A stretch of DNA of 64,000 nt from Rhodobium gokarnense (lineage in GTDB: Bacteria > Pseudomonadota > Alphaproteobacteria > Rhizobiales > Rhodobiaceae): contig NZ_JAOQNS010000005.1 in NCBI RefSeq assembly GCF_025961475.1, positions 62,001 to 126,000 on the forward strand, written 5' to 3'. Under the pieces are notes generated by a model. That model was not told the DNA's origin, did no database searches, and saw nothing but the letters and a program-made list of their open reading frames with translations. Shown here one piece after another: positions 44,129-54,619 of this stretch. Made by a program: the position numbers and the translations under genes. Numbering within the stretch: position 1 is the stretch's first letter; every line of letters starts with the position of its first letter.

Positions 44129-44941
44129 TCAGAACCGGAGCCAGACCGCGGAAAACACGCCGCGTTCGCGAAGGGCGTTCCGGCCGTAGACGGTGCCGAG
44201 GCCGCCGACCTGGAGCGAGACGCTGTCGTTGATGTCGTAGACGGCGCTGAGCTGCAGCTTGTGCTCCCGGGTGCGGCGGAAGATCCCCTCCGGATCGCTG
44301 ACGCTGATCGTGTTGAAGGTCTGGCCGAGCAGCAGGAGGTCGGGGCGCGGGCGGAACCCGAGCGTGCCGTCGAGGCGCAGTTCGTCCGCCGGGTCGCCGG
44401 TGCGCAGGCGATAGCCGGCCTGGCCGTCGACGAAAGCCTCCTTTTCCCCGATCTTGAAGCCGTGGCCGATCATGCCGCGGAGTTCGTATTCCGTATCGGT
44501 GTTGCCGACATTGGCGAGGATGTCGTTGCGGCGCGTGCCGGGAATGCGCGTCAGCCCCTGGAGCGAGACCACCGTCCCCTCCTTCTGGAACACCCGGTAT
44601 CGCGCGCCGAACTCGGTGTATCCGGGCCGGCTGCTGCTGGAGATGTCGCCGATGGAGGCATGGCGGAAGCTCGGCGTCAGCATCAGCGTCAGGTCCGAGG
44701 TCAGCCCGTACTCCATCAGAAGCGAGGCTTCGGCCTTCGTGTAGTCCTCGATGTCGACGACGTTGCCGTGGTCGTCGAAGCCGCGCGTGCTGTTCGAATA
44801 CATGAAGGTGCCGATGACCTGGCCGCTTCCCTTCTCGTGGGTCCAGGCGCCGGCGCGGGCCTCGGAGGCAGGGACCACCAGGCCGGCGAGCAGTCCGGCC
44901 GCGACGGCGGCCGGCGCGAGAAGGTCACGCAATCTCGACAT
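44129..44941 (-). CDS. Outer-membrane beta-barrel-like protein (XagA-like), end of EPS operon
   Basis: A 270-residue exported protein. The signal peptide runs to about SEARAG; the mature part is beta-rich with regularly spaced aromatic/charged strands and ends VWLRF, a C-terminal Phe typical of outer-membrane barrels. It overlaps the response regulator stop by 17 bp. From memory it resembles proteins labelled XagA that accompany the glycosyltransferase XagB; I am moderately sure. A role as polysaccharide export or surface-anchoring pore is inference. Confidence 0.65.
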   Translation of the reverse strand: MSRLRDLLAPAAVAAGLLAGLVVPASEARAGAWTHEKGSGQVIGTFMYSNSTRGFDDHGNVVDIEDYTKAEASLLMEYGLTSDLTLMLTPSFRHASIGDISSSSRPGYTEFGARYRVFQKEGTVVSLQGLTRIPGTRRNDILANVGNTDTEYELRGMIGHGFKIGEKEAFVDGQAGYRLRTGDPADELRLDGTLGFRPRPDLLLLGQTFNTISVSDPEGIFRRTREHKLQLSAVYDINDSVSLQVGGLGTVYGRNALRERGVFSAVWLRF

Positions 44942-45908
44942 GGCTGTCACCGTGGCTCCATTGGCGCCCGAACTCGGCCAGCAGATGGGCCGGCAGGTCG
45001 ACGAGCGCGTCGGCCGTTCCCAGCGACGCCGCGGACGAGGCGGTGACGAAGGCGTTGTGGATGGAATTGCCATGGCGAATCTCCAGATCGGCGATACGGC
45101 GGCGGGCGAACTCACATGTCTTGTGCATGGTGAATGCGTCGCGGGCGTTCGGCTCCACGATCATGAAGGCTCCCGGCTCGTAGGCGGTCAGAACCGCCGT
45201 CAGGGGCGCCGGCACGCGGGCGATCGCGGCAGCGACCCTGCGGAGCAGGTCGTCAGTCGCCTCGTCGCCGTGGAGGGCCCGGAATGCGGCGAACTCATCG
45301 ATCTGGATCAGGGCGAGGCAGGCGCTGGCGCCGCTCTCCATGCAACTGCGCAGGGTGACGTCCATGACGAACGGGCTCGCGAGCCTGGTCAACGGATCGA
45401 CGAGCGTGCCGCCGAGTTCCCCGCGCGCCAGTTCCTCGTGTCTTTGTTGCAGCTCGACCTCGCGAAGCTGGCGCCGTTCCTGCTCGCGCTTGAAGCGAAG
45501 CAGCGTGCGCACGCGCGCCGTCAGGTCGATCTGGCTGACCGGCTTGCCGACGAAATCGTTGGCTCCTGCAATGAAGGCCTGATTGAGCGCGTCGGTATCG
45601 CGCATGCCCGACAGCATCAGGACCGGCAGGTCCCTGCCCGCCGGATGCAGGCGGATGCGCGCGCAGGCTTCGATGCCGTCGACCTCCGGCATCATGATGT
45701 CCATGATCACGAGGTCGAACGTATCGGCATCGGCATCGGCATCGCTATCGCGTCCGGACGGCTCCACGCCCAGCATCGCAAAGGCGTCGGTGGCCGAACG
45801 GGCGAACTGAATGTCCGCGAACCCGCTGTCTTCGAGATAGGCGGCGGTGATGTCTGCCGCGTCCTCGGAATCGTCGACGATCAGGATTCTTGAAACGGAG
45901 GCGTTCAT
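44925..45908 (-). CDS. Response regulator with degenerate GGDEF domain
   Basis: A 327-residue protein. The receiver domain (1-140) is intact: D12/D13, phosphoacceptor D70 in LVIMDIMMPEVDG and K122. A coiled coil (FKREQERRQLREVELQQRHEEL, 139-160) leads into a GGDEF-like domain that starts DPLTRLASP (171-179), but the catalytic RYGGEEF position reads AYEPGAFMI (242-250), so cyclase activity should be lost. A (GAT)-like repeat encodes DSDADADAD at 55-61. It overlaps both neighbours and shares an operon with an Hpt protein and a polysaccharide synthase. Confidence 0.85.
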   Translation of the reverse strand: MNASVSRILIVDDSEDAADITAAYLEDSGFADIQFARSATDAFAMLGVEPSGRDSDADADADTFDLVIMDIMMPEVDGIEACARIRLHPAGRDLPVLMLSGMRDTDALNQAFIAGANDFVGKPVSQIDLTARVRTLLRFKREQERRQLREVELQQRHEELARGELGGTLVDPLTRLASPFVMDVTLRSCMESGASACLALIQIDEFAAFRALHGDEATDDLLRRVAAAIARVPAPLTAVLTAYEPGAFMIVEPNARDAFTMHKTCEFARRRIADLEIRHGNSIHNAFVTASSAASLGTADALVDLPAHLLAEFGRQWSHGDSHVEIA

Positions 45909-47377
45909 GACCGGTCCTCTCCGATCGCCCGATAGGCGCGCCAGGTGGGACCGTCGAAGACCATCCGGTAGCCGGGCGCCCCTTTCTCGAACAATTCGGG
46001 AAAGGCGCGCCCGACCTTGTCCATGCCGAGGGCGGAGGCGGCGTTGCGGACCACGACGACGGGCCAGGTCATCTCGCGCCGCGTCGACGCGATGCGCACG
46101 GCGAATGCGTCGGCGCTGAGGAGGCCGTCGGCGCTGCCGCGCATGGCGACCACCGCGCCGGCTGCCTCGGCATCGAGGAGAATGTCCCTGCTGTCCGCCA
46201 GCAGGCGTGCCAGCAGAGCGTTTTCTTCCTCCATGCGCCCTTGCTCCGCGCCGAGCGCAGCGCTGAGCCATTGCCTCGTTTGCGGCGATGCGTCGCCGAC
46301 AAGGATGACCGTCGCGCCGAAGAATCCTGCGACCAGCCAAAGCATGATCGCCCGCCGGTGGAGGCGGCTGTCGGGCCAGTACACCGTACAAGCCGCAGCG
46401 ATGACCGCAGCGGGCCCCAGCGCCAGGGCGAGAGGCGGCGCGACGCCGAGGAGGGCGGCAAAGACGATGGCCGACACCAGCATGGCGCAAAGACCGATGG
46501 TCGCCAGCAACAGCGGCTGCAAGGTCCGCGCCTGCATGGCCATGACGATGGTGATCGGAGCCGCCACCAGCGTGCCGGCTGCCGCCAGCGCCGCCACGAC
46601 CAGCATGTTTGGCGGGAAGACGGCACCGCTGCGATCGCTCATGGAGGCGACGTTCGCCGCCGCTCGTGCCAGGAAGTGAAACGCGTCTCCCGCCAGTATC
46701 CAGTTGACGAAGATGAAGCTCAGGACAGAGAACGCCAACGGAAACAGCAGAACGAGGAAAACGCTGATCGGCGATCTCTCGAGCAGGTCGGGGGGAGCGA
46801 CGAGCGCCAGAAACGGGATGCTGGCGATCGCCAGCACTGCCCCGAAGGGATGGGAAAAGGCCAGAACGACAAGTGCGATCGAGACCAGCATGATGTCGTT
46901 GACGCGGTAGGACCGGCGCAGGTTGAAGATGCCGAGCGCCAGCAGCCACACGCCCAGCAGAACGAGAACGCCGCCCGTCCCCTCGGTGACCGCCCGCACG
47001 AATATCGGGTTGAACGCCAGCAGCGCCGTCACCGCCAGGCTGGCGGCAAGGCCGAATTTGGCCTTGCGGAGCATGACGAACCAGGTCGTGACCAGCCAGG
47101 CGGCAAGCAGGGCCACCAGCAGTGAGAGCGCCAACGGCCCGAGGCCGGGCAAGAGCCAGTTGACGCTGACCGCCACCATCTGCGGCAATGGCGGGAAAGC
47201 GGTCGCTGCCGTCTCGAACGGGACGACGCCGGCATTGACGAGCAATGCCCGGCCCCACAGATCGCGTTCGCCGACGGCGGCATAGCCATGCGCGCGCAGG
47301 AACAGCGACAGCGCGAGCATCGCAGAGGTCGCAGCGGCCATGACGAGCAGTGCCACATGTCTGCCGCGGAGCGTCAT
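45905..47377 (-). CDS. Multi-pass membrane protein, GT-C/ArnT-like, of EPS operon
   Basis: A 490-residue membrane protein with about ten predicted helices and a C-terminal soluble domain of ~130 residues. The early GERDLWGRALLVNAGVVPFETAATAFPPLPQM resembles the charged loop and PP motif of GT-C lipid-linked glycosyltransferases. It has no signal for a known family that I can name with certainty. ATG 47377 overlaps the GT2 stop by 4 bp. It could add a decoration or move lipid-linked sugar for the polymer. Confidence 0.65.
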   Translation of the reverse strand: MTLRGRHVALLVMAAATSAMLALSLFLRAHGYAAVGERDLWGRALLVNAGVVPFETAATAFPPLPQMVAVSVNWLLPGLGPLALSLLVALLAAWLVTTWFVMLRKAKFGLAASLAVTALLAFNPIFVRAVTEGTGGVLVLLGVWLLALGIFNLRRSYRVNDIMLVSIALVVLAFSHPFGAVLAIASIPFLALVAPPDLLERSPISVFLVLLFPLAFSVLSFIFVNWILAGDAFHFLARAAANVASMSDRSGAVFPPNMLVVAALAAAGTLVAAPITIVMAMQARTLQPLLLATIGLCAMLVSAIVFAALLGVAPPLALALGPAAVIAAACTVYWPDSRLHRRAIMLWLVAGFFGATVILVGDASPQTRQWLSAALGAEQGRMEEENALLARLLADSRDILLDAEAAGAVVAMRGSADGLLSADAFAVRIASTRREMTWPVVVVRNAASALGMDKVGRAFPELFEKGAPGYRMVFDGPTWRAYRAIGEDRS

Positions 47378-49266
47378 GCCGCCTTTTCCTCCGTCTGACG
47401 GGCCGCGATGGCGATGGCGGCGGCTGTATGGTTGGACAGGCCGTGGTGCGTCTTTTCCCAGTAGAACGGTTTGGTGATGAGCTGCACGGCGGCCTTCCAG
47501 GCGGCGACGGACATCAGAACCCAGTACCAGAGTGCGGTCAGACTGAACGGAATGAGCTCGAACCATCTCCTCCTGAACGGCGCCAGCATCATGAGAAACG
47601 TGATGAGGGCGTTGCCGGCGAGCAGGTTGAACAGGGCGAGATAGAGCAGGACCGGCGGGAACAGTTGGTCGAAGCCCGAGGTCTGGGTGATCACCCAGAC
47701 GACGAACATGCCCCAGAAGATCGGGTTGAGGACACCGGACAGCATCGTGCCGCCGATGAAGAACACGAAGCCCAGAACACCCAGCGGGCCGATCGTGCGC
47801 ATGAGGTGAATCGGGCGCCGGGTATGGACCAGGAAGGTCTGCATGTAGCCCTTGATCCAGCGCGAGCGCTGGCGGATCCAGTTCGCGTGCGAGACGTTGG
47901 CCTCTTCGAAGGTCGTGGATTCGATGAGCCAGACGCCGTAGCCCTTCTGGGTCATGCGGATGCCGAGATCGGCGTCCTCGGTGACGTTGAAGGGGTCCCA
48001 GGCATGCAGTTCGCGCAGCACCTCGATCCGGAAGTGATTGGAGGTGCCGCCGAGCGGGATCGGCACGCCGAGCCGTTCCAGGCCCGGCAGCATGAGGTCG
48101 AACCACAGCGAATAGTCGAGCGTGAACAGGCGGGTCAGCCAGTTTTCGTCGCGGTTGAAATAGTTCAGCCGGCACTGCACGCAGGCGATGTGGTCCGGCG
48201 CCTGGCGGAACGCGGCAACGACCTTCTTGAGCTGGTCGGGCTCGGGCTTGTCCTCGGCATCGTAGATGACGACGTAGTCGCCGCGCGCGAAACGCAAAGC
48301 ATAGTTGCAGGCCTTCGGCTTGGTCTGCGGCTCTGACGGCGGCACCCGGATGATTTCGAAAATGCCCTCAAGACCGAGCGCCATTGCCGCGTCGATCGTC
48401 TCGGTGTCGCCTTCCTCCAGCACGATCTTGATGTCGAGGCGCGAGGTCGGATAGTCGAGGTGCCGCAGCGCATTGGTGATGATCGGCAGGACCTCGGGCT
48501 CGCGGAACATCGGCACCAGCACCGTGTAGATCGGCAGGTCCTCGTCGCGCAGCATCCGGACGCCCGCGTCCACCTCGCGTGTCCGGCTCGTCTGGTGGTT
48601 GCCTCCGGCCCAGATCAGGATCGCCTTGAACAGGAAATTGCCGAAATAAAAGAGCGACAACACCAGATTGATGGCGATCAGGCTGACCACCGGCGCAAAG
48701 GCGAGCCCGAGCGCGGCCGCCGACATCAGGAACCAGCCGACGATGATCTGTGTCGGCGTGAACACGGTCTGGGCCGACATGACGGGATCGCGCTCGGCCA
48801 GTTCGAACACGGCCCGTTGCGAATACTGATCGGAAAAGACGTTCTGGACGGCCCAGTGAATGTCGAACTTGCTGGTGACGACGAAGGAGACGTCGCGTCC
48901 CCAGCGCCGGCGGCTGAACAGGATGCATTCCGGGCCCGGGCGGGCCGTTGCGACGACGATGCGTCCGTCGCGCTTGCGCCAGGGCATCGCCAGCTCGCGC
49001 ATGTATTCGGAGACGTCGTCTTCCTTGAGGAGGTCCGGATCGGGCAGCGCCTCGCGAATGCTGACGAATTCGATGTCGAAGCGCTCCGACAGCGAGCGGT
49101 AGTACTCGGCCGGGTCGATCCAGTTCCGGGCGAGCAGAACATCGATGAGGCTGGCGTTCCATTGCTCCGCCAGGCGTCTGGCCTGGTCGAACTGGGAAAG
49201 GCTGATGAGGCCCTGCTCGACCAGGTGGTCGCCGGTCCAGATATCGCTCTCGGTCAAGGTCGCCAT
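47374..49266 (-). CDS. Processive family-2 glycosyltransferase with N-terminal MshEN/T2SSE-N-like domain
   Basis: A 630-residue protein. Residues 10-150 look like the N-terminal domain of GspE/MshE ATPases: LVEQGLISLSQF, then NASLIDVLLARNWID; in MshE this fold binds c-di-GMP. Two helices follow (~172-222). The GT2 core has DAED at 336-339, TED at 429-431 and QRSRW at 466-470, which is the DxD/TED/QxxRW set of cellulose and hyaluronan synthases. Further helices end the protein. The XagB proteins of Xanthomonas share this architecture as far as I recall. It lies 2 nt after the BcsB-like gene. Confidence 0.85.
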   Translation of the reverse strand: MATLTESDIWTGDHLVEQGLISLSQFDQARRLAEQWNASLIDVLLARNWIDPAEYYRSLSERFDIEFVSIREALPDPDLLKEDDVSEYMRELAMPWRKRDGRIVVATARPGPECILFSRRRWGRDVSFVVTSKFDIHWAVQNVFSDQYSQRAVFELAERDPVMSAQTVFTPTQIIVGWFLMSAAALGLAFAPVVSLIAINLVLSLFYFGNFLFKAILIWAGGNHQTSRTREVDAGVRMLRDEDLPIYTVLVPMFREPEVLPIITNALRHLDYPTSRLDIKIVLEEGDTETIDAAMALGLEGIFEIIRVPPSEPQTKPKACNYALRFARGDYVVIYDAEDKPEPDQLKKVVAAFRQAPDHIACVQCRLNYFNRDENWLTRLFTLDYSLWFDLMLPGLERLGVPIPLGGTSNHFRIEVLRELHAWDPFNVTEDADLGIRMTQKGYGVWLIESTTFEEANVSHANWIRQRSRWIKGYMQTFLVHTRRPIHLMRTIGPLGVLGFVFFIGGTMLSGVLNPIFWGMFVVWVITQTSGFDQLFPPVLLYLALFNLLAGNALITFLMMLAPFRRRWFELIPFSLTALWYWVLMSVAAWKAAVQLITKPFYWEKTHHGLSNHTAAAIAIAARQTEEKAA

Positions 49267-49268
49267 GG

Positions 49269-51278
49269 TCAGCCCTTCGACCGTCTGGCGCGCGAGATGC
49301 CGCGCAGGAGCAGGACGAATCCGACCGTGGCGATCAGCCAGCCGCCGCCGATCATGCCGAGCCTGTATTGCTCGAGATACTGCGCAAGGCCGCCGGCGTC
49401 GGGGTAGCGGATCTGGATCAGCCGATCGCGCTTGGTGGAAAATGCCAGGCTGATGCCCTGGCGATCGAGGAACGCGACGTTGCCAAGGCCGAGCTCCGGC
49501 GGCTCCGCGCTGTCGACGGGCTCATCGAAGGACGTGCCGGGACGTATCCAGAGGACCTGCCTGCCGTCGGCGGCCAGAAGCTGTACAGCCGTCTGCGACT
49601 GCAGCACCGCGCCATCCATCAGAACGGCGCCGCCGGTATCGGCGAGCCGGACCGGACCGGCATCGAAACGGATCGCGGGCGTGCCTTGGGGCGGCGCCGT
49701 GTCGGACACCCAGACATAGGGACCTTCCGTCGGCGCGCTGCGGTAGCGGACGCGCACCGGTGTCCGTTCGTCCAGAAGGCCGCGCAGGAGGCGGGCCGTA
49801 CCGCCGAGCATCGCCGGGTCCTGAAGGACGACCGTGACGCCTTCGGCAAAGTGCGGTCCGAGTTCAAAGAAATCGTCGACCGGCCCGGCATCGCCGAGGA
49901 CGAAATGGCTGGAGGGCAGCAGTTGCGCGTCGTAGCCTTGAGGCGCATGGGTGCAATCGCCGCCGCGCACCTGGCGCACCGCGGAAATCTCGACCGAGTT
50001 GCTGGTGGTCATCAGGCCGGACGGCAGGTCGACATCGAGCCGGACCCTGTCGCGGTCCTGCACCACGACGCTTGCGAGCAGGAGACCGTTCATGGTCACG
50101 CTGACGACCGGCGGCGTCTTCCCGCCATTGCCGGCAACCGACATGTCGACGACCATGCCGGAAATGCGTTTTCCCGGCGGAACGCGCGTCACCGGCAGGG
50201 AGACGGTCCAACTGCCGCGATCGACGACCTGGAGGATCGCCGGATCGCTGCCCAGGTCGCTGAAGTCCAGGCGGTCGGGCGCGCTGCGGTCCGACCGGTG
50301 CAACCGATCGACCTCGGGTGACGTCGCCAATGCGCGCCAACGGCTCTGCAGCAGGTGCGCTGCCGCCAGCGGATCGTCGCCGCCGAGGGCGATGGACGGC
50401 ATGGCCCCGCCGCGCGCCTGCAGGGCGGGCGCGTCCCGTCCGTCCAGGACGATCCGGCCCCTTCTCCAACGGCCGCCTGCGGGGGCGCGAGCGGTGGTCG
50501 CCAGGGCAGCGTTCGGGTTGCCGGCGACCAGCGCCAGCGCCGCCGCGGCCTGGGCCTCACTCGGAGTTGAGGGGATGACGATGTCGAGATCGCGCGGCAT
50601 CATCGCCGCCACGTCCGCGACGGACGTCAGGGCGTCCCTGTTGAGCGTGGCGATGATACCGCCCGCCGGCGCCAGCGACAGATAGGCGCCCGACAGGCGT
50701 TCGTCGACGCACCGATCGTCCGTCATGGCACCGGAATATTCGATGCGCACATGGACGAAGCCGTTCTGCACGACGTCCCGGTCGATGAGGATCTCGATCT
50801 CTCCCGATCGCTCCTCCACGCCCAGCGGTCTGGTCAGACGCGGCCGGTCCGCGACGCTCACCTTGACGTAGCGCCGGCTCTCGAAGGCGGCGGCAGACCG
50901 ATAGGGCAGCAGCAGGCGGAGGCTGTCGACGGTGGACGGCCGCGGGATCGGGAAATAGAGATCGCGCACGCCGGAAAGGCCCGTCAGTTCGATCCCTTGG
51001 GCAAAGCCGAGTTCGGAGAGCGATATCGTGCGCTGGAGCGTGGCATCCGCGCGCGGGGATTTTACGGCGTCGGCGGCCGGCGGGTCGTGCCGTTGCGTGG
51101 TCGGCTCCGCAGCGCCGGCGGCCCCCACGGTGCGCCGCAGGGCGGTATCCGCGAACAGGGGTTTGGCAGCGGGCAGAATGTCCTGCCGTTGTGTCGTCGG
51201 TTGCTCGGCGCCGGCGGCGCCCGCCGATGCCAGCAAGGCGAGCACCGCCGCCGACACGCGCGGCCATGTCATGGGCAT
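49269..51278 (-). CDS. BcsB-like cellulose-synthase regulatory-subunit-family protein
   Basis: A 669-residue secreted or anchored protein. It has a signal peptide to about AAGAEQ, an unusual N-terminal two-copy repeat (GAAGAEQPTTQRQD / GAAGAAEPTTQRHD), then beta-rich carbohydrate-binding-like modules (DLYFPIPRPSTVDSLRLLLPY, VDMSVAGNGGKTPPVVSVTMNG) and a single C-terminal helix (MIGGGWLIATVGFVLLLRG). This is BcsB layout. The start could be GTG 51281 or ATG 51278, both overlapping the Hpt stop. Likely guides a nascent glycan through the periplasm. Confidence 0.75.
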   Translation of the reverse strand: MPMTWPRVSAAVLALLASAGAAGAEQPTTQRQDILPAAKPLFADTALRRTVGAAGAAEPTTQRHDPPAADAVKSPRADATLQRTISLSELGFAQGIELTGLSGVRDLYFPIPRPSTVDSLRLLLPYRSAAAFESRRYVKVSVADRPRLTRPLGVEERSGEIEILIDRDVVQNGFVHVRIEYSGAMTDDRCVDERLSGAYLSLAPAGGIIATLNRDALTSVADVAAMMPRDLDIVIPSTPSEAQAAAALALVAGNPNAALATTARAPAGGRWRRGRIVLDGRDAPALQARGGAMPSIALGGDDPLAAAHLLQSRWRALATSPEVDRLHRSDRSAPDRLDFSDLGSDPAILQVVDRGSWTVSLPVTRVPPGKRISGMVVDMSVAGNGGKTPPVVSVTMNGLLLASVVVQDRDRVRLDVDLPSGLMTTSNSVEISAVRQVRGGDCTHAPQGYDAQLLPSSHFVLGDAGPVDDFFELGPHFAEGVTVVLQDPAMLGGTARLLRGLLDERTPVRVRYRSAPTEGPYVWVSDTAPPQGTPAIRFDAGPVRLADTGGAVLMDGAVLQSQTAVQLLAADGRQVLWIRPGTSFDEPVDSAEPPELGLGNVAFLDRQGISLAFSTKRDRLIQIRYPDAGGLAQYLEQYRLGMIGGGWLIATVGFVLLLRGISRARRSKG

Positions 51279-51616
51279 CACTGCACTCCCGTCGCGGGAA
51301 CGGTTTCCCGGAGCGCCAGGGCCATGGAGCGAAGGGCGGCAAGATCCTGATCGGTCGGGGGCCCGGACATGGCCTTGATCTCCAGGAGCCGTATCTCGGC
51401 CTCCCGGGCCCGGGCGCCCAGGTCCTTGTAGCCAAGTGGCGGCGCCGTGCCCGCCAGTTCATGCAAGGCCACCAGGAGGGCCTCCATTTCGGGCGCGTAG
51501 GTTTCTTGCGACAGCGCGTTGGCGTGTGCCTCCAACTGCTCGAGGCGCGACGGCAACCGCGCTGCAAATCGCGCCGCAATACGTTCCAGGGCAGGACCAA
51601 TAGGGGATTGTGCCAT
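51278..51616 (-). CDS. Hpt (histidine phosphotransfer) domain protein
   Basis: A 112-residue, all-helical protein. The Hpt motif ALHELAGTAPPLGYKDLGARAREAE places the phosphorylatable His at residue 52, followed by the usual A/G-T and the later LEIK helix. It is the first gene of the polysaccharide operon and overlaps the BcsB-like gene. No kinase is encoded nearby. It could pass phosphate to the response regulator at 44925. Confidence 0.8.
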   Translation of the reverse strand: MAQSPIGPALERIAARFAARLPSRLEQLEAHANALSQETYAPEMEALLVALHELAGTAPPLGYKDLGARAREAEIRLLEIKAMSGPPTDQDLAALRSMALALRETVPATGVQ

Positions 51617-52369: not shown

Positions 52370-52735
52370 TCACCCCGTGCTCCAGGCCCGCGGCTGTTTC
52401 ATGCCGGCGATCTTGCAGGCCTGTTTGACGTAGCCGTAGGGAAAAAGGGCAAAGAAGCGGCGCCTTGCCGCCGCTTCGCTCTCACCGTGGCGCGCGGCGA
52501 GGAAACGAAAGGCAAAACGGGCATCGGGCGCGACGCCGGATTCGGCGAGAAACTCCCGCATGAAGGCAAGGACCGCCCAATGCTCCTCGCCGAGTTCGAC
52601 GCCCTCCTCTTCGGCAAATTTTTCGGCAACAGCCGCGTCCCAATCCTCCGGATCGACGAGATATCCGGCTTCGTCGCGGCGGACGGTCCGGTCTCCGACG
52701 ACGTCTTCGGTCACCACGTCGGGTCGTGTCCTCAT
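52370..52735 (-). CDS. DsrC/TusE-family sulfur-relay-like protein lacking the C-terminal cysteine
   Basis: A 121-residue protein. DEAGYLVDPEDWDAAVAEKFAEEEG and HWAVLAFMREFL match TusE/DsrC, as does the tail LFPYGYVKQACKIAG. In DsrC the penultimate Cys (CysA) is 11 residues after the ACK cysteine (CysB); here that position is Trp (CKIAGMKQPRAW) and the protein ends STG. So only CysB remains, unlike TusE, which keeps CysA. ATG 52735 has an excellent GGGAGGGAAGG site. Its position behind nirN suggests a role in nitrite reduction or heme d1 assembly instead of tRNA thiolation. Confidence 0.85.
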   Translation of the reverse strand: MRTRPDVVTEDVVGDRTVRRDEAGYLVDPEDWDAAVAEKFAEEEGVELGEEHWAVLAFMREFLAESGVAPDARFAFRFLAARHGESEAAARRRFFALFPYGYVKQACKIAGMKQPRAWSTG

Positions 52736-52785
52736 GGCCTTCCCTCCCCTTCTTGTTGTCTGCGGCACCGGTCTTTGCCGTGCCG

Positions 52786-53052
52786 TCAATCGTCCTCTGC
52801 CTCTGCGATCAGCCGGCGCACCCAGCGCGCCGCGAGCCAGGCAGCGGGGACGCCGAGGGCGATGGACCAGGCGACGGAAACGGCCGGCGACAGCACCGGC
52901 AGGCCAATGGCCTGCCCCATCAGCGACAGCATGAAGAGGTTGATCGCCACGGCTGCCGCCGCGAAGGGGTAGAGCAAGAGGCCGAGCCGCCACAGCGGGC
53001 GGCCCGGTCGCGGCGTCCCGGCGCCGCCCCCGGCGTCAGTGGCTCGTGCCAT
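52786..53052 (-). CDS. Small two-helix membrane protein in nir operon
   Basis: An 88-residue protein with two predicted transmembrane helices (LLLYPFAAAAVAINLFMLSLMGQAIG and PAVSVAWSIALGVPAAWLAARWV). It overlaps the nirN end by 17 bp and precedes the DsrC-like gene by 50 nt. I recognise no family; a membrane anchor for a nir assembly factor is a guess. Confidence 0.6.
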   Translation of the reverse strand: MARATDAGGGAGTPRPGRPLWRLGLLLYPFAAAAVAINLFMLSLMGQAIGLPVLSPAVSVAWSIALGVPAAWLAARWVRRLIAEAEDD

Positions 53053-54619
53053 CGGAAAACGTGATCTTGTTCCAGACATTGTATTTGCCCGAGGGTTTCT
53101 TCATCGGCAGCCGCCGGACCTCTTCCAGTGTCCGTGCGTCGTAGACGAGGAGCGCGCCGTTGTCCTCCCAGACCGAGACCAGCGCATAGCGGCCGTCGCG
53201 GGTGAACTCGGTATGGGCGACCGTTGCCCCCGGCACAGGCTTCAGCGTCTTCACGATCTTGAGCGTCTCCTTGTCGATGACGTGCATGACGTCCCTGTTC
53301 GGGCCGAAGAAGACGTCGGCCCAGACGTAAGGCGAGTTCTCGTGGCTGCGCAGGAAGAAGCCCGGGCCGCCGGTCCTGATGGTGCCGACCACGGTCCAGT
53401 CGTCGATGTCGATCACCGAGATGACGCCCTCGCGCAGGTGCGGCGTTGCCATTACCCGGCGGCCCTTGGAGGTCCAGACAATGCCCGATCCCAGATGCGG
53501 CATGCCCGGCAGCGGCAGGCTGGCGATTTCCCGCCCGACATCGAGATTGACGACGACGCCTTGGTCGCCGGCACGGTTGGTGCCGATGAGGTTGCGGTAG
53601 TCGGGGGTGAAGAAGAAGTCGTCGAGGGGCTCGTCGATGGCGATGCGCCGGCGGGCAAAGAGGCCCTTTTCGGCCGCCAGCGCCTCTTTCATGCCGGCCT
53701 CGTAGCTGTGCACGAAGCCGTCGTGGAAGGGACCGGCGCCGGGGTCGGTGGCGATCTCCCAAATCTCAGGCGCGTCCTTCAGGGCTAGGATGAAGCTCTT
53801 GCGCTGGGGCGCCTGGTAGACGGCGGAGACCCGCGACTTCTCGCCGTTCCTGGCGACGACGTCGACGACCTTGACGACGCTGAGGTCGGCGGTGGAGAGG
53901 ATCGTCAGCGTCTTCGGCAGATAGTTGGCGACGGCCAGCCAGCGCCCGTCATGGCTCATGGCGATGTTGCGGCTGTTGAGGCCGGCGCGCACCCGGCCGA
54001 CCTCCTTGAGGGACCAGAGGTCGTATTTCTGGACCCAGCCGTCGCGCGACATGATGAAGACGAAATGCCCGTCGGGGGAGAATTTCGGCCCGCCATGGAC
54101 GGCGAACGGGGTGGCGAACCGGTCGAGGACGTCGAAGGTGTCGCCGTCCAGCACGCTGACATGGTGGTCGCCGGTTTCAACGACGAGGGTGACGTTCATC
54201 GGATCGGCGGCAAAGACGGGCGCCGGCGCAGGCATATAGTCCTCGGCCATCTCGCGGCTTTCAGCGATCTCGTTCGGTCCCCAGGCCGGGATGTCGGCGA
54301 GCGGCGTGCGCAGATACGCGGCGAGCGCTGCGATCTCGTCGGCCTTCAGGACGTCGGCAAAACCCTCCATCTGGGTCGCCGGGCGGCCATGGGCGATCAC
54401 CTCTTCCAGCACCGGACCGCGGATGCGCTTCAGCGTTTCCGGGATCAGCGCCGGTCCGATGCCGCCGAGCCGGCTTTCGGCATGGCATTCGGCGCAATGC
54501 TCGCGGTAGAGCGCACCAGCGTCCGGATCGGCGTGCACGGGCGCAGCCGCATAAAGCCCGGCCGCCGCCGCCAGCATTGCGATCGTCGGGGCCCTAAAGG
54601 AATTCATGGGCCGGATCAT
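53036..54619 (-). CDS. nirN: NirN, c-type cytochrome d1-domain protein (dihydro-heme d1 dehydrogenase)
   Basis: A 527-residue periplasmic protein: signal peptide to about VHADPD, a cytochrome c domain with CAECH (C42, C45, H46), then an eight-bladed beta-propeller of the cytochrome d1 type ([42 protein letters not shown]). It is shorter than NirS and follows nirJ, matching NirN, which oxidises the last heme d1 precursor. The first ATG at 54619 has a GGGGGAAGAG site; a second lies at 54607. It overlaps nirJ by 26 bp. Confidence 0.92.

Follow-up and report, generated by a model that had tools for sequence, protein, structure and literature searches.

Synthases that are partnered by BcsB or that carry an MshEN domain are usually regarded as c-di-GMP-controlled. 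Degenerate GGDEF domains are found in PelD and PopA, which act in polysaccharide or other regulatory pathways, and receptors of this type bind c-di-GMP via RxxD. To our knowledge, the Syp locus of Vibrio fischeri is not of the BcsB/MshEN-synthase type. In that species, SypE is described as acting on SypA, below transcription (PMC12369376). In E. coli, the cyclase DgcJ is reported to bind and copurify with the MshEN synthase NfrB, which DgcJ serves (PMC8669469). The c-di-GMP-binding motif of MshEN domains is given as RLGxx(L/V/I)(L/V/I)xxG(L/V/I)(L/V/I)xxxxLxxxLxxQ, present twice, and a Gly11-to-Ile change in motif 1 of MshE abolished c-di-GMP binding (PMC5013675). A related synthase core is that of the xag-like or sfz genes, which were proposed for the stalks of iron oxidisers (Kato 2015, PMC4643136; 2021, PMC8250860).

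Here we describe a locus of Rhodobium gokarnense, located in a stretch of 64,000 nucleotides of contig NZ_JAOQNS010000005.1 (hereafter the window), in which a synthase core of this kind is accompanied by genes for an Hpt protein and a response regulator (RR). The core is already known as xag/sfz, and the version bearing Hpt and RR appears, by sequence comparison, to be new; no published description of an Hpt/RR-bearing BcsB or MshEN synthase was found among open-licence papers, within the matches listed. On balance, we consider it probable that a phosphorelay sets the activity of the exopolysaccharide synthase post-translationally, by contact between RR and the synthase. Labels L001-L065 denote the synthase loci compared, G numbers denote genomes, and OMP stands for outer-membrane protein.

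Organisation of the locus

The presence of six genes that include an Hpt protein and a receiver is confirmed (Table 1). The preliminary description had called the genes overlapping; all six ORFs, their coordinates and the minus strand were recovered, and four of the five junctions do overlap (by 4, 4, 4 and 17 nt), the exception being the BcsB/GT2 junction with its 2-nt gap. The proposed layout, with the Hpt gene first and the RR gene fifth of six, before the OMP gene, agreed with the ORF coordinates. Pfam backed each of the identities given to the Hpt, BcsB-like, GT2 and receiver proteins, the Hpt protein scoring 27 bits with PF01627 (cut-off 24.6) and the BcsB subunit 43.1 bits with PF03170 (cut-off 21). 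The GT2 protein also matched the cellulose synthase structure 5ej1 (E 1.2e-12). Two domains that had gone unmentioned were detected by Pfam as well, namely MshEN at the start of GT2 and a GGDEF-family domain at the end of RR; both are decayed in the window and have a direct bearing on mechanism. Residues H52, G56, A58 and G62 of Hpt were unchanged across all eight aligned orthologues. The receiver of the window RR has D12, D13, D70 and K122, and D70 had been correctly placed as its phospho-acceptor.

Table 1. Coordinates of the locus and of its domains and key residues in the window
Feature	Position	Strand	Evidence or remark
Whole six-gene set	44129-51616	minus	ORFs
Hpt protein, 112 aa	51278..51616	minus	PF01627 E 5.3e-6
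Hpt phospho-acceptor H52 codon	51461-51463	minus	HELAG motif
BcsB-like periplasmic synthase subunit, 670 aa, GTG start	49269..51281	minus	PF03170 E 2.4e-11
GT2 processive synthase, 630 aa	47374..49266	minus	DAED336, TED429, QRSRW466; Pfam GT2 E 7e-25
MshEN-type N-terminal domain of GT2	48826..49239	minus	Pfam 1.4e-9
Polytopic membrane protein (GTC), 490 aa	45905..47377	minus	GT-C-like predicted fold; place of Sfz3/XagC-like genes
Response regulator (RR), 327 aa	44925..45908	minus	Pfam REC + GGDEF
REC domain of RR	45507..45887	minus	Pfam receiver E 1.4e-23
D70 phospho-acceptor codon of RR	45699-45701	minus	Receiver site
Degenerate GGDEF domain of RR	45030..45404	minus	PF00990 E 1.9e-9
Outer-membrane protein (OMP), 270 aa	44129..44941	minus	Predicted 12-strand barrel, likely exit channel

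GTC and OMP were without matches in Pfam (E<=1) and in NCBIfam (E<=0.1). The AlphaFold model of GTC (pLDDT 91.2, from an alignment of 21 of the 24 relatives found) came closest to the GT-C enzymes AftA, DPY19, OST and PglB (E 1e-4 to 3e-3), with TM values of 0.43-0.48 and a large rmsd of 8.6-13 to the best PDB matches. The model thereby supports the GT-C-like label given earlier to this membrane protein, at fold level only. The label of outer-membrane protein was borne out by the OMP model (pLDDT 84.5), a predicted 12-strand outer-membrane channel which was closest to the COG4313 channel 4rl8 (TM 0.73), followed by FapF (up to 0.66).

Genes resembling manC, recognised from sequence pattern only, are present at L012:3346-4851, L041:4210-5727 and L028:8803-10245; those of L012 and L041 stand alongside a GH113-like gene. 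They hint at a mannose-containing polymer in the GH113- or manC-bearing lineages. GH113 had zero matches in the genome of the window, being present in 7 of the 12 genomes searched, and scanning the 16-kb stretch of the window by pattern revealed no manC-like gene; a mannose polymer is therefore left unclaimed for the window.

Upstream of the synthase locus, also on the minus strand, are genes for a DsrC-like protein (52370-52993) and a cytochrome c / cytochrome d1-domain protein (53036-54619), apparently a separate respiratory gene group. The same genome has a second GT2 paralogue on contig 2 (L036:4228-6939), a 904-aa frame with 37% identity over 540 columns, in which Pfam shows GT2 domains only and the MshEN match is absent.

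Distribution of the synthase and co-inheritance of the response regulator

A contig scan yielded 33 loci, chiefly from Alphaproteobacteria and Mariprofundus/Zetaproteobacteria. The nearest named record was that of Rhodobium orientis DSM 11290, with a 92% identical GT2. The synthase was found in 5 of 397 genomes of the order (E<=1e-150) and in 11 of 385 genomes of the class, the own genome being counted in both, and in 10 of 397 genomes of the family of G777 (E<=1e-200; G777 counted). This sparse spread, together with the placement of Rhodobium among Sphingomonadales and Henriciella in the GT2 tree, points to horizontal transfer of the synthase locus. A plasmid-borne module as the rule was considered and rejected, since RR had zero plasmid matches at 1e-25 and GT2 at 1e-140 returned a single plasmid-search record, CP131057.1, of the same length and place as L040.

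The loci were annotated with purpose-built, iterated profiles, L060-L065 lying outside the annotated set. The GT2 tree had 52 rows, from which L030 and L036 (same gene as L002) were excluded and L053 (duplicate of L010), L013 and L033 (partial) and L001 and L050 (the window itself) were dropped; a second tree was built from 45 chosen rows. In the 52-row tree, the window GT2 falls in a clade of 22 rows (support 95/91), inside which four Niveispirillum-type loci (L012, L040, L041 and L042; 100/100) are set against an 18-locus group (100/99). The 18 and the four loci stayed split (100/99) when the MshEN part was removed, the other 23 rows being uncounted there.

Profile annotation revealed a full-length RR at all 22 loci of this clade. 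When the trees of RR and of GT2 were compared across the 22 loci, 14 of 19 splits were common to both; after label shuffling (500 rounds) the mean was 0.19 and the maximum 3. An RR search at E<=1e-30 gave a single match in four of five genomes and zero in the fifth, that of L012, whose RR is about 29% identical. These comparisons indicate that RR accompanies the synthase and shares its history across one GT2 clade. At L043, the BcsB, GT2, GTC and OMP genes are present and RR is absent.

Occurrence of Hpt at the synthase loci

Conserved synteny had been named in the preliminary description as a check on the idea of a built-in relay, which absence of Hpt and RR from orthologous loci would contradict. 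The idea withstood this check, RR being present throughout the clade and Hpt at 11 of its 22 loci, with a twelfth locus having Hpt nearby. Eight of the eleven are stand-alone proteins and three are fused, the fused ones having weak scores. The stand-alone Hpt gene lies immediately 5' of BcsB on the same strand in the window, in R. orientis, where it sits on a separate contig (L051, genome G060), and at L004, L005, L007, L011, L037 and L052. At L008, L010 and L054, an Hpt-like segment forms the end of a divergent neighbour protein, which is of PAS-HK-REC type at the first two and of TM-REC type without the kinase part at L054. Pfam shows zero Hpt at E<=0.01 in the L010 kinase and gives the L054 segment 19.2 bits, below its cut-off of 24.6, and an Hpt profile predating the fused members gave E values of 6e-4 (L010) and 4e-3 (L008), the fused assignments thus resting on profile and motif.

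At the twelfth locus, L040, an Hpt ORF (Pfam 1.6e-8) lies past a GH113-like gene and runs in the opposite direction. Since the purpose-built Hpt profile missed this ORF, which Pfam detected, further Hpts may be overlooked. At the remaining 10 loci, Hpt was not found within the locus stretch examined, which reached 7.6 kb or more to either side of the GT2 frame at nine of them and 3.8 and 5.3 kb at L009; by-eye inspection upstream of L006, L009, L040 and L041 was partial. Parsimony on the GT2 tree gave four changes for stand-alone Hpt, for example one gain and three losses. When 16 genomes were searched with the Hpt alignment, E values below 1e-30 were obtained solely in G781, G777, G017 and G779, whose Hpts are themselves members of the alignment. 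In the genomes of L055-L059 the best matches were 3e-7 to 1e-8, mostly within frames of about 1200 aa, and because of these weaker matches Hpt may be present elsewhere in those genomes. Neither a full RR nor Hpt was found in the stretches of the 14 Mariprofundus/Zetaproteobacteria rows, that of L018 being just 5.2 kb.

The 10 loci without visible Hpt, and the broken RR receiver of L009 described below, would be expected if Hpt and RR were operon passengers with no action on the synthase. We give this reading hardly any credence in view of the constant presence of RR at the 22 loci, the common history of the RR and GT2 trees, the tight gene junctions and the retention of H52 in all eight Hpts.

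Candidate source kinase

The source kinase had been described as missing, and indeed the 16-kb stretch of the window yielded no kinase core; the loci of relatives, however, carry a kinase which, judged from sequence, is a candidate for it. L037 presents a one-strand run of kinase, receiver, Hpt, BcsB, GT2, GTC, RR and OMP, the kinase combining 5TM-5TMR_LYT, PAS, HisKA and HATPase domains with two receivers. In R. orientis, a 5TM-5TMR_LYT-PAS-HK kinase without its own receiver adjoins the OMP gene, and shows 47% identity with the L037 kinase over residues 11-567. The divergent PAS-HK-REC kinase with an Hpt-like end occurs at L008 and L010, and such a kinase is found together with stand-alone Hpt at L007. 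Within the stretches examined, 9 of the 22 clade loci, all of them outside the window, have one or more kinase cores; some of these may not be cognate, and those at L005, L011, L012 and L040 may be unrelated. In the genome of the window, which is 98.8% complete, a full-length match to the kinase was not found and only kinase-core matches were obtained, the best with 48% identity over residues 314-579. The OMP gene is separated from the next gene by 42 bases, and therefore a kinase remnant cannot fit there.

These arrangements also bear on the direction of phosphate flow. Hpt could be a phosphate sink which drains RR, with a kinase elsewhere phosphorylating RR directly, as the receiver-less R. 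orientis kinase beside the locus could do; the lack of a kinase core in the 16-kb stretch would be in keeping with this. We regard the sink as unlikely, given the receivers placed between kinase and Hpt at L037 and the kinase-receiver-Hpt-like fusions of L007, L008 and L010.

Receiver and degenerate GGDEF domain of the response regulator

At all 12 loci with Hpt at or near them the receiver retains an intact acidic pair, Asp and Lys, and so it does at 9 of the 10 loci without. The exception is the RR of L009 (L009:7075-8085), in which SH replaces the acidic pair and Arg replaces Lys, and no Hpt was seen at that locus. As L009 comes from a MAG and its upstream stretch is short, its receiver loss counts as one suggestive case.

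The GG[DE]EF active site is absent from all 25 RRs compared (the 22 of the clade and those of L044, L046 and L049), and Pfam found no DNA-binding domain in the window RR. An active diguanylate cyclase was rejected for want of the GGDEF motif, and a transcription factor was rejected for want of a DNA-binding domain by Pfam. Since both are lacking, a switch at the protein level is favoured; inherited as it is together with the synthase, and served by an adjacent Hpt at many loci, RR most likely acts via protein contact. The earlier suggestion of post-translational switching is thus partly supported by the make-up of RR, but is qualified by the finding that Hpt is not universal at these loci.

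RxxD is retained at the inhibitory-site position in 6 of the 25 RRs (L012, L041, L042, L037, L044 and L049), QLGD (L040) and SLGD (L046) are near misses, and the window RR has PLTA in place of RxxD. The REC-GGDEF layout, the best NCBIfam score being that of PleD (95 bits), and the RxxD kept by the RRs of L012, L041, L042 and L037 would suit a phosphorylation-controlled c-di-GMP effector or diguanylate cyclase in the style of PleD, PopA or PelD. Such a role seems to us quite improbable, as the PleD score is far below its cut-off of 474, none of the RRs has the active-site motif and the window RR has lost RxxD.

Close to the related synthase of L046, a receiver-domain gene (L046:10561-12288, plus strand) is followed by several tandem, partial and decaying copies of itself, two frames of which are 326 bases apart.

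Decay of the MshEN domain

Decay of MshEN was scored at five positions per motif, 10 in total. The window GT2, with its two 24-residue motifs at residues 10-33 and 39-62, keeps 3 of the 10: Arg and Gln are missing from both motifs, and motif 2 has lost both Gly, with Ile at the first Gly position. Its score with the NCBIfam c-di-GMP motif model was 23.9 (cut-off 38). Of these positions, 8-9 are kept in the 14 Mariprofundus/Zetaproteobacteria rows and 7-8 at the four Niveispirillum-type loci; L037 and L011 have 4 left, and the 15 companions of the window in its 16-locus subgroup have 2-3. Both c-di-GMP sites, MshEN and RxxD, are thus weak or lost in the subgroup of the window, and the Niveispirillum-type loci have preserved them better. 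The Mariprofundus/Zetaproteobacteria GT2 proteins (L014-L023, L026, L032, L034 and L035) have an additional MshEN-like motif segment that precedes the main copy, seen as a second GT2 profile match at about residues 15-74.

The synthase might still be switched by c-di-GMP via MshEN, with Hpt and RR forming a second layer or serving another target. The domain is, after all, recognised by Pfam, and in NfrB, which binds c-di-GMP, more than one change seemed to be needed to block binding fully (PMC8669469). We nevertheless give this little weight, because the window keeps so few of the positions retained in the Mariprofundus/Zetaproteobacteria rows, the motif-model score is below its cut-off, and the Ile at the motif 2 Gly recalls the change which abolished binding in MshE, though in motif 1 there (PMC5013675).

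MshEN decay took three changes on the 45-row tree, and has thus occurred also in lineages where no Hpt was found at the locus (L044, L046, L049 and L038). Two independent pairs on well-supported branches were available for comparing decay with Hpt, and Hpt differs in neither. Because the c-di-GMP sites seem to have been lost, and Hpt to have arrived, in a single event, it is by inference that we suggest that a phosphate switch may have replaced the usual c-di-GMP control in the branch of the window.

Proposed mechanism and its implications

In the phosphorelay that we favour, GT2 would polymerise the sugar chain and pass it across the inner membrane, BcsB would guide the chain in the periplasm, the GT-C-like protein might modify or assist it, and the 12-strand OMP barrel would release the polymer. 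A sensor kinase, by way of a receiver if there is one, would phosphorylate H52 of Hpt, which would hand the phosphate to D70 of RR. The dead GGDEF domain of RR would then dock on the synthase, most plausibly on the decayed MshEN, thereby opening or closing the synthase. With NfrB-DgcJ as a model, the analogy suggests that contact between RR and synthase was retained while the c-di-GMP chemistry was lost. A more far-reaching version, in which a local c-di-GMP module of REC-GGDEF and MshEN became a purely phosphate-driven switch, the dead pair docking and the Hpt-fed receiver gating, is offered tentatively and strikes us as somewhat doubtful. The target of RR could also be something other than the synthase, and the rival readings overlap one another.

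If the proposal is true, a synthase with its own Hpt and receiver and with both c-di-GMP sites decayed would represent a natural swap of control logic. Apparent living intermediates would be the Niveispirillum-type loci, with a good MshEN and RxxD in three of four, and L037, where all the relay domains and RxxD occur together with a weakened MshEN. The stalk genes of iron oxidisers would thereby be tied to alphaproteobacterial surface polymers.

Comparison with known systems

The xag/sfz clusters, as described (PMC4643136, PMC8250860), resemble the window in having BcsB, an MshEN-GT2 (EpsE-like there) and a third membrane gene (Sfz3-type) in the same order, and the Mariprofundus/Zetaproteobacteria GT2 proteins are 48-52% identical to that of the window. 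They differ in their Sfz4-type gene and Sfz5-type outer-membrane gene, in keeping 8-9 of 10 MshEN positions, and in that Hpt or a full RR was not found in their stretches; the main text of PMC8250860 has no mention of Hpt. The Sfz4-type gene is GH113-like by Pfam in L016, the sole one tested, and by profile in 13 of 14 rows, L018 being too short.

The cellulose synthase BcsA-BcsB shares with the window a GT2 with TED and QxxRW and a BcsB partner. An ordinary cellulose synthase was rejected for the window GT2, which scored 54.6 bits with TIGR03030 (cut-off 699.1) and had no match to a PilZ domain by Pfam. PelD and PopA have a dead GGDEF domain in common with the window RR, which unlike them is without RxxD.

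The Syp system of V. fischeri is similar in that an Hpt-bearing kinase, SypF, and a regulator, SypE, are described as steering polysaccharide below transcription, but the target of SypE is SypA (PMC12369376), in contrast to the synthase contact proposed here. E. coli NfrB-DgcJ, described in PMC8669469 as a synthase activated by c-di-GMP, likewise joins a GT2 fused to MshEN with a GGDEF protein that serves it. Compared with that pair, the MshEN of the window is decayed and N-terminal, the GGDEF motif has been lost, a phosphorylation input has been added and BcsB is present.
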